This document shows positions 12,042 through 15,000 of a stretch of DNA of 64,000 nt, in pieces (position 1 is the first letter of the stretch; each line of letters begins with the position of its first letter). The notes below the pieces were generated by a model that made no database searches, had not been told where the DNA came from, and was given only the letters and a program-made list of their open reading frames with translations. The stretch lies in assembly GCF_020382885.2 (NCBI RefSeq), contig NC_058512.1, forward strand, positions 1,487,001 through 1,551,000, read 5' to 3'. Made by a program: the position numbers and the translations under genes. The DNA is from Scatophagus argus (taxonomy: Eukaryota > Chordata > Actinopteri > Scatophagidae).

Positions 12042-15000
12042 TTACTTCCTGAACTGGAGGATGGGAGCTGGGATTTTGATGTCTTGTCCCTTTTCCAGCC
12101 TCTTCTCACACTCAATCAGGTAGTTGACCCCATCAATCACCAGCTGGACCAGCTCCACCTGAAAGTACACAAGGCCAACTTCATTTCTGCAGCAAGAAAG
12201 CGACTCTGAGGTGCGTCGATGTAAGCCTAGCAGTGCATGCAGTGTGGCTGATTGATCCTCACCTCAGATTTGCCCAGACGGTCGTTGTTGGAAATGTCAA
12301 AGGTGTCTCCAGTAGCGGCCGTGTCCACTCCCCCTGTGCCTCTTTTCTGCAGCCGCAGGTTGTCGAGGATTTTGGAGAAACGTGGGTCCTGCAGAGCAAT
12401 TTCAATCATTTGTGAGTTGTTAGTAAGCACAATAAAATGCTTCTCATCTGTGTTCGTGTTGCGCTGTAAACTCTTACAGTATGAGCGGTAAGATGTGTGT
12501 TACCTTGCTGAGTTTCGGCAGGCGAACATGCACGCCCGCCCTGAGGCCGGTGCCCAGGTTGGAGGGACATGTGAGGATGTAGCCCAGTCTCTCGTTCCAC
12601 ATGAATTCCCAGCCTCTCTCCTGGATCAGATGCTCCACCTGTGGGACAGAAAGACAAACCGGTTCCATGTGGAAAACACATCATCATTATTTCTGCCTGA
12701 AATATTCTTGATAGATTTTATTGTCTTTGATTATTATCTGTGTAAAATCTGCATGTATGCATACATTTCTGTCCAAATTAGTTTTCGCTGAGCCACAACC
12801 CAATGTCCATTAAGGCTGAATGTCCATTTGGATGGGGGGAAGCTGCCTAGATGTAAATTTTGGATCCACTTTTCTGTGGACGCCACACAGTGAAACAACA
12901 ACAACAGCCTGAAGTTAGGGGCTGCTGTTTCATCAGCCACACTGACTGTGAATGAGTAATGGTGTTAAGAAGACAACAGGAAGTTGTCTTCTCAACTTTA
13001 CTGCCTCACAGCCGACTAACTCTGCTGTCGGAGTCTCCAGCTGCGAGCTGCTCGATGGGGCTAAACTTAGGCACAGTGGAGCTTCGAGCTAAATGTCAGC
13101 ATGCTAATACCCCCCCAATGACATAGCTAACATACTGATGCAGGTATAATGTTTACCATGTTCACCATCTTAGTCTGACGAGCTATAAGTTTGCAGCATT
13201 AACATGCTAACATTTGCTGATCAGCACTAAGCACACAGTTCAGTTGAAGCTGAAGCATCTGACTGACTGCAAAGCAAAAGCTGACCCCTCTATCCAACAT
13301 TTGTTGATATATTTTACTGAAGAAAACAAAGAAATTGATCTGGTGATGACACAAGTGGAGGAGGGAGGAGTAGAGACATTTCAGTCTGGACCAGAATGGT
13401 GGACTGACTGACTGATTGTTGCTATAGCAACACGTAAATCATCAGTGTGAGTGCTGGATTCGTGATCATTTCACTGTACCTGTTTGAGTCCTCTGCAGAA
13501 TCTCTCAAACACTCTCTTCATGTTGCCTCCCTTCTCCATGGAGATGACTCTGGTGTGGTCCTCCTCATTCACCCAGATCAGGAAGGTCTTCTCATTGTTG
13601 TGCCTGAGGAGAACCAACTGGAGGAACTAAATAAACTGCTCTCCAGGTGAGACACATGTTCCATTACTGCAGGTGACTCATGGTCGTAGAGGACCTGATT
13701 TCTTTAGACTCTCTGATACTCATGCTGTTTGTCAGTGCAGAATTAATCTGTGCAACAGTGTTGAGAAACACATTCATCTATAATACACAATGCACATCAA
13801 ATGGCAAACACAAAAACAATTTCCTGTTCCTGTTTATTTATTTTCCTCCGACGTGTCAAAGCCAGAGCAATAACTGAATTCTTCTACTGAGCTCCAAGGG
13901 ATGTAGAAAGATATATTGAATATGTCAGTAACGTGGATCAGGATGCGGAAGTTAGAGTCTACAGGGTCACACAGCAGACATGCAGAAGAGCTGAATAAAC
14001 CCTACCAGATGCCCCTGGCGTCCGGCCAGTCTCTGGCCATAAAGGCACATGTCAACAATGGAGAGACAGGCTTGTCAAACAAGAAGTGGTCCTAAAGATG
14101 GTTGGGGTAAAAGGAAGTTGAGACCAGCAGAAGAGGGGGAGAAAAGAGGTAGGAGGATGTTAAAGAGGAACAGATGGACTCCTATAACTGAGAGTTTGGG
14201 GAAGAAACTACTCTGTATTCTTTTGGTGAAGAGAAGAGTGTGCAGGGTAGGCAGGGCTTCACAGACCAGGACTACAGGAGGGGGGGCAGCGCTAACAGCA
14301 ATGTGATTTCACTGAACTGAGTTAGCCTTACCAGATCCCTCTGGAATCAGGCCAGTCTCGGGCCATGAAGGCCGAGGTGAGTAATGGAGACACAGGCTTG
14401 TCAAACAGGAAGTGATCCTAACGTGCCGCAGTGTGAAATAACCAGAACATGAAGGTCAATAAATCTATGTTAGCTGTGGGACTGATTGGTCCTCATCTAT
14501 AGAGAACAAGTGTTATATGTGCATGGAGCTGACATATTTATACTAGGTGTACTGAGAGGAGTACTGCAGGAACTGAGTGTTGTACTATGATAAAGTCAGA
14601 ACAAGAAGAACAGTCAACAGTGATGCAGGAGAAACCGAGCTATCATGAGTTCAGGTGGAAACAGACAGGTGTGTATCACGTCTTTTAGTCCAGAGGCTTT
14701 CTGTTATAAATTTGACCTGAAATAAAAATACAAGAGCTCAAATTCCTCACATGACTTTGAGAAACCAAAAATGATTCATCAAAGAACACAGGAATTTCTG
14801 AAGCCAGTTTTTTTTTTCCATAGACAAGGCAAATGAAACTCACATCAATGAGTTGCTGCTGCTCCTTCTCCGTCATATCTCCCAGGCTGTAGTAGCGTCC
14901 GGCCAGGTCTCCCTTCAGGCCGGCCAGAGCCGTCACCGTCACCCGCTCCACCTCACGCCGCTCGGCCCTCGAACAGGCCGGGGGGAGGCTCAGGCCCCGG

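Follow-up and report, generated by a model that had tools for sequence, protein, structure and literature searches.

Two tandem copies of exon 5 in a probable ckmt2 gene of Scatophagus argus, predicted to be used one at a time

Mutually exclusive tandem duplicated exons are familiar as a class in vertebrates, and the available parts of two studies describe them as adjacent exons of equal length and phase that swap the same segment of a protein (PMC5740500; PMC9741552). Among the human exclusive clusters, as reported in the accessible text of the first of these, exons not divisible by three are found in 377 (60%), and a distance of less than 50 bp between donor and branch point in 57 (9%) (PMC5740500). 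Two cases described in excerpts of their respective papers come close to the locus considered here. In SNAP25, duplication of exon 5 gave rise to two mutually exclusive splice variants, both of them reported (PMC2581893), and in OGDH, which encodes a mitochondrial energy enzyme, exclusive use of the alternative exons 4a and 4b is enforced by distant branch points situated close to the 5' splice site (PMC7969005). As for regulation in muscle, the portion of a further paper open to us states that the region 10-80 nt downstream of muscle-included exons is enriched in RBFOX, MBNL, and CELF motifs, and that PTB is opposed by RBFOX1 together with a CELF protein at the muscle exon of alpha-actinin (PMC5840707).

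We describe a comparable pair of exons in a gene for mitochondrial creatine kinase, likewise an energy enzyme, from the fish Scatophagus argus. The DNA analysed, referred to below as the window, is a stretch of 64,000 nucleotides (assembly GCF_020382885.2, contig NC_058512.1, positions 1,487,001 to 1,551,000), and all coordinates are those of the window. The reading that we prefer, at odds of roughly two in three, is that an old tandem duplication left two coding copies of exon 5, here called 5A and 5B, and that one or the other is carried by each productive mRNA, which would give two enzymes of 417 residues differing at positions 237 and 247. As in SNAP25, two mutually exclusive variants are thus proposed, in a different gene and with exon use inferred from sequence (PMC2581893, available part).

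The gene lies on the minus strand, with a coding span of 17282-12042 that, besides the extra exon 5, comprises nine coding exons and encodes a mitochondrial creatine kinase. Exons 1 (17282-17134), 2 (15949-15751), and 3 (15247-15152) are followed by exon 4 (15065-14844), which ends on a codon boundary, has the donor GTGAGT, and is the upstream partner common to both copies; exon 6 (13603-13480) is their common downstream partner, and the remaining 3' exons lie at 12638-12504, 12388-12263, and 12158-12042. Both guanidino kinase domains are present in isoforms A and B by Pfam, and isoform A finds its best matches in PDB among mitochondrial creatine kinases. With respect to S-type versus U-type orthology, the PDB ranking for isoform A places a U-type structure, 7u5i, first and 1crk second. 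Pfam comparison of nine open frames of the window gave RhoGEF (two), PH, ankyrin, ubiquitin-conjugating, and MARVEL matches in six, with three frames unmatched. The RhoGEF and PH stretches, one of the two RhoGEF matches being below the Pfam cut-off, belong to a probable rasgrf2 that adjoins the creatine kinase gene, and such a neighbour matches what we take to be the gene order near human CKMT2. The gene is probably ckmt2, which encodes the heart and muscle (sarcomeric) mitochondrial creatine kinase.

Exon 5A (14417-14332), the first in the transcript, encodes [28 protein letters not shown](W), and exon 5B (14091-14006) encodes [28 protein letters not shown](W). The two 86-nt exons of equal phase, 240 nt apart, that a first-pass annotation of this DNA had reported are both present at these places on the minus strand, each with AG before it and GT after it. 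Its estimate of about 16 differing bases is exact, with 16 of 86 counted between 5A and 5B, and its claim of only two replacement codons also holds: 14 codons differ, 12 of them silently. The other two change the residue, position 237 being Ser in 5A and Cys in 5B, and position 247 Ser in 5A and Ala in 5B. The copies are thus adjacent, homologous, and equal in length and phase, as mutually exclusive tandem duplicated exons are. Their length of 86 nt, not divisible by three, is shared in this respect with 60% of the human clusters (PMC5740500, available part); the ckmt2 pair differs from the human exon sets in that just two residues distinguish its members and in being known from sequence alone.

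As a repeat, 5A and 5B align over 108 nt with 80.6% identity (E 2.9e-20) and are one of the nine pairs of local repeats that the 64 kb yielded (same strand, at least 50 nt, less than 5 kb apart, E of 1e-6 or less, dust filter on). The other eight comprise six in tandem arrays at 3582-5666, one of 5878-6040 with 6168-6324, and one in the array at 48.9-49.4 kb. An open frame of 869 residues at 3393-6002 on the plus strand contains two kinds of tandem repeat, one with a 390-nt unit (3.0 copies, 95%) and one with a 165-nt unit (4.8 copies, 91%), and is without a Pfam match at E 0.001; four bases beyond a tRNA-Glu (TTC) gene a 32-nt unit is perfectly repeated in tandem, with 2.2 copies (6803-6947, plus strand, gene and repeat together); and at 48934-49390 a 60-nt tandem array adjoins a diverged 47-nt array. 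A third copy of exon 5 was not found by tblastn with the 29 residues of exon 5B, the next best match having an E of 0.13. Upstream of 5A and 5B the flanks have TTAG in common, and similarity stops there; downstream, the first 18 bases of the introns agree at 13 positions (13988-14005 versus 14314-14331, minus strand), in part through the donor consensus, with nothing plain beyond. This 18-base likeness is possibly a retained splicing element. An assembly error or collapsed haplotypes in place of a duplication would leave matching flanks around a misjoined haplotype; here the exons diverge by 19% and the introns are alike only next to the splice sites, and we regard such an artefact as having almost no chance of being the explanation.

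The product of exon 5B is closer than that of 5A to five aligned PDB sequences of mitochondrial creatine kinases, none of them, we assume, from fish. At residue 237 four of the five have Ala and one (1crk) has Cys; at residue 247 all five have Ala. Because of these residues, 5B looks, by a weak inference from five sequences, like the ancestral form at both positions, and both changes seem to have arisen on the branch of 5A. At residue 239 both 5A and 5B have Phe where all five PDB sequences have Gly, and since the Phe is common to the two copies, the duplication would seem to postdate the change from Gly to Phe.

With 5A alone or 5B alone the transcript has an open frame of 417 residues. Inclusion of both brings a premature stop within 5B, at 14054 and ahead of four exon junctions, and skipping of both brings one at 13594, in exon 6 and with three exon junctions after it, so that the frame is open with exactly one copy and broken with two or none. 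Messages with a stop ahead of exon junctions are, by the usual rule, degraded by nonsense-mediated decay. Frame and decay together could give exclusive use among productive mRNAs, and we propose that exclusivity is enforced mainly in this way, transcripts with both copies or neither being lost to decay. The earlier statement that the frame forces one-or-the-other splicing therefore stands at the level of productive mRNA, as the frames show, and is too strong at the level of splicing itself, where the 240-nt intron between the copies (14331-14092) looks spliceable. Transcripts containing both copies may form and then be destroyed, because the intron appears long enough and unblocked branch-point candidates for 5B are separated from the 5A donor by well over 100 nt.

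Neither a steric block nor a U2/U12 mismatch would be the source of exclusivity. Candidates of the form YTNAY within the last 200 nt before 5B are found at -17 and -69, inside an AG-free zone of 85 nt, and at -136, outside it. A CTAAC at +7 to +11 of the intron is near the 5A donor; inspected by eye, several AGs lie between it and 5B. Steric exclusion is not favoured, there being no usable branch-point candidate within about 50 nt of that donor. The AG-free zone before 5B, covering 85 of 240 nt, likewise differs from OGDH with its distant branch points (PMC7969005, available part). A U2/U12 mismatch is not favoured, as the introns are GT-AG with donors GTGAGT, GTAAGG, and GTAGGG, and competing RNA structure is not favoured either, giving no signal in the one sequence folded (z -0.53, 35 of 100 shuffles equally stable, inverted repeats of 10-17 nt only).

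The same arrangement could serve a different purpose, with 5A acting as a poison switch: splicing of 5A to 5B would produce out-of-frame mRNA that is degraded, lowering ckmt2 output in some cells. A strong 5A donor sits beside the better 5B acceptor across an intron of 240 nt, and the stop at 14054 with its four downstream junctions is of the kind that such a switch would use. Conservation of the protein is not required of a poison exon, however, and the balance of silent and replacement changes argues that the amino acids of 5A have been selected, so we hold this explanation to be improbable.

That balance is strongly skewed. The first-pass annotation had named dN/dS between the copies as a check, and the comparison does reveal an excess of silent changes, dN being 0.055 and dS 1.73 by the NG86 method (codon bootstrap, dN 0 to 0.13 and dS 0.61 to infinite; a maximum-likelihood dS of 27 is not meaningful). 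Simulations used one mutation rate for both copies and an omega of 0.03 during constraint. When 5A was neutral throughout, none of 4000 runs at each of two transition/transversion settings ended with at most two residue changes and no stop. With constraint on 5A, the chance of this outcome at the two settings was 0.002 and 0.004 for an omega of 0.5, 0.06 and 0.10 for 0.2, and 0.69 and 0.74 for 0.03.

Late drift of 5A was simulated in the same framework, with figures that are not conditioned on 16 differences. At T 50, the best-fitting age for the 16 differences, the chance was 0.67 with no drift, 0.30 with drift over the last 5% of the history, 0.045 over 10%, and 0.011 over 15%. At T 25, the youngest age tried, which gives a mean of 10.5 differences without drift, it was 0.92 with none, 0.77 with 5%, 0.56 with 10%, 0.34 with 15%, 0.095 with 20%, and 0.021 with 30%. 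Three older ages, slightly too old in that they give 17-21 differences without drift, yielded 0.016, 0.005, and 0 of 1500 for drift over the last 10%, so that the limits become tighter. On these simulations 5A appears to have been constrained as coding sequence through most of the time since it arose, about nine tenths at the best-fitting age, and a span free of selection can take up at most about the last tenth at that age or, with the youngest age tried, between a fifth and three tenths. The suggestion that both copies have been kept by selection is thus supported by the pattern of silent and replacement changes for most of their history.

The duplication is, to judge from the divergence, old, because silent changes are near saturation and the flanking introns share little. 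Substitution rates in fish are a few per site per 10^9 years, and a dS above 0.6 would correspond, very roughly, to 80 million years or more. With such an age, 5A is therefore expected in many related fishes. Among viral and prokaryote contigs, where little was expected, a search for stray fish DNA gave 5 and 9 pattern matches, respectively, none of them a relative.

The splice sites are less even than first described. All four had been called good; three are acceptable, and the acceptor of 5A is poor. On a consensus matrix whose acceptor part covers the last 15 intron bases only, this acceptor scores -2.9, against 3.95 to 10.84 for the gene's other eight acceptors, of which that of 5B is the lowest, and below the median of -2.6 for 4192 AGs scored on the minus strand. 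By the same kind of score the donor of 5A (CTG|GTAAGG) is the stronger, at 9.2 and within the top 0.6% of 4440 GTs, compared with 6.7 for that of 5B (CTG|GTAGGG). Pyrimidines occupy 28 of the last 45 intron bases before 5A versus 34 of 45 before 5B. An alternative acceptor for 5A, at an AG 47 nt upstream, was rejected by eye, since the exon, longer by 47 nt, would lose the frame and run into an in-frame stop.

The weak 5A acceptor is the main fact against the earlier account of two functional exons, and it counts against our preferred reading together with the Ser at residue 247 of 5A, where the five PDB sequences are uniform. It suits a regulated minor exon or an exon starting to die, and fits either. 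In the second case 5A would have worked as an alternative exon for most of its history and would now be dying or dead, its acceptor decayed and 5B alone in use; an acceptor below the strand's median AG is what this predicts, and both residue changes seem, from the five sequences, to fall on the 5A branch. Against it, the frame, the donor, and 27 of 29 residues of 5A are intact, upstream of it a candidate branch point, TTGAC at -39, is still present together with an AG-free zone of 45 nt, and the loss must be recent, within the limits on selection-free time given above. We judge a dying 5A unlikely, though it deserves more weight than the other alternatives, and retain the reading in which both copies contribute to productive mRNAs, with 5A, given its weak acceptor, perhaps a minor and regulated form.

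Candidate regulatory motifs lie on either side of 5B. A cluster of RBFOX/MBNL/CELF type at 13968..13984 on the minus strand has UGCAUG at +22, UGCU at +30, and UGUGUG at +33 downstream of the exon. TGCATG with both TGCT and TGTGTG within 40 nt accounts for two of the 49 occurrences of TGCATG on the window's two strands, the site after 5B included, a count to be read with the knowledge that twelve patterns were scanned and that the trio was assembled after the sequence had been seen. The other such site is at 46373 on the minus strand. Upstream, the 240-nt intron is 66% pyrimidine and contains seven UCUU (PTB-like) motifs; at least seven TCTT are found in 0.85% of 240-nt windows of the minus strand, and a count this high is expected of any pyrimidine-rich tract. 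The motifs after 5B and the UCUU tract before it are possible leads on regulation. On a weaker footing than the frame argument, we suggest that 5B may be the major muscle exon, aided by the RBFOX/MBNL/CELF sites after it, and may be repressed through PTB-like binding upstream where PTB is high. The surroundings of 5B are comparable to those of the alpha-actinin exon in their motifs, and the likeness is one of motif alone.

The placement of the segment in the catalytic domain was correct, residues 237 and 247 falling within the C-terminal domain PF00217 (186-399). Isoforms A and B match this domain with 258.1 and 258.4 bits, and by this score neither looks defective. The reactive cysteine of creatine kinases is, we presume, the one in the LTCPSNLGT segment further on, and so neither of the two variable positions. 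We also take the MARDWPD segment to be near the dimer interface, with the tryptophan beside residue 247 at the interface; nothing useful on this location was found in the open-access literature. It is conceivable, though we would not count on it, that one gene provides two mitochondrial creatine kinases across a large group of fish, in which a switch between thiol and hydroxyl at residue 237, with the altered residue 247, tunes redox sensitivity or assembly of this energy-shuttle enzyme by tissue or stage.

The first-pass annotation knew of no description of such a pair, which is consistent with, though not proved by, the main texts of the open-access papers among the matches listed: none reports duplicated or exclusive creatine kinase exons, the mentions of ckmt2 among those matches concern expression or allelic imbalance, and one paper deals with CKB. 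The terms 'creatine' and 'CKMT' are absent from the main texts of the two studies of exclusive exons (PMC5740500; PMC9741552). Predicted isoforms may well exist in the gene models of genome databases; what appears to be lacking in print is this instance of a familiar class.

The diversity of creatine kinases in vertebrates is usually credited to separate genes. Four are named in the available part of a recent paper (PMC12630352). The exon 5 pair of ckmt2 offers a simple check of automatic gene models, which may choose one copy, and the role of the two residues would be directly visible on comparing natural enzymes that are alike in all others. If it is true, a splice switch in the mitochondrial form would place the supply of energy to muscle under one more level of control.
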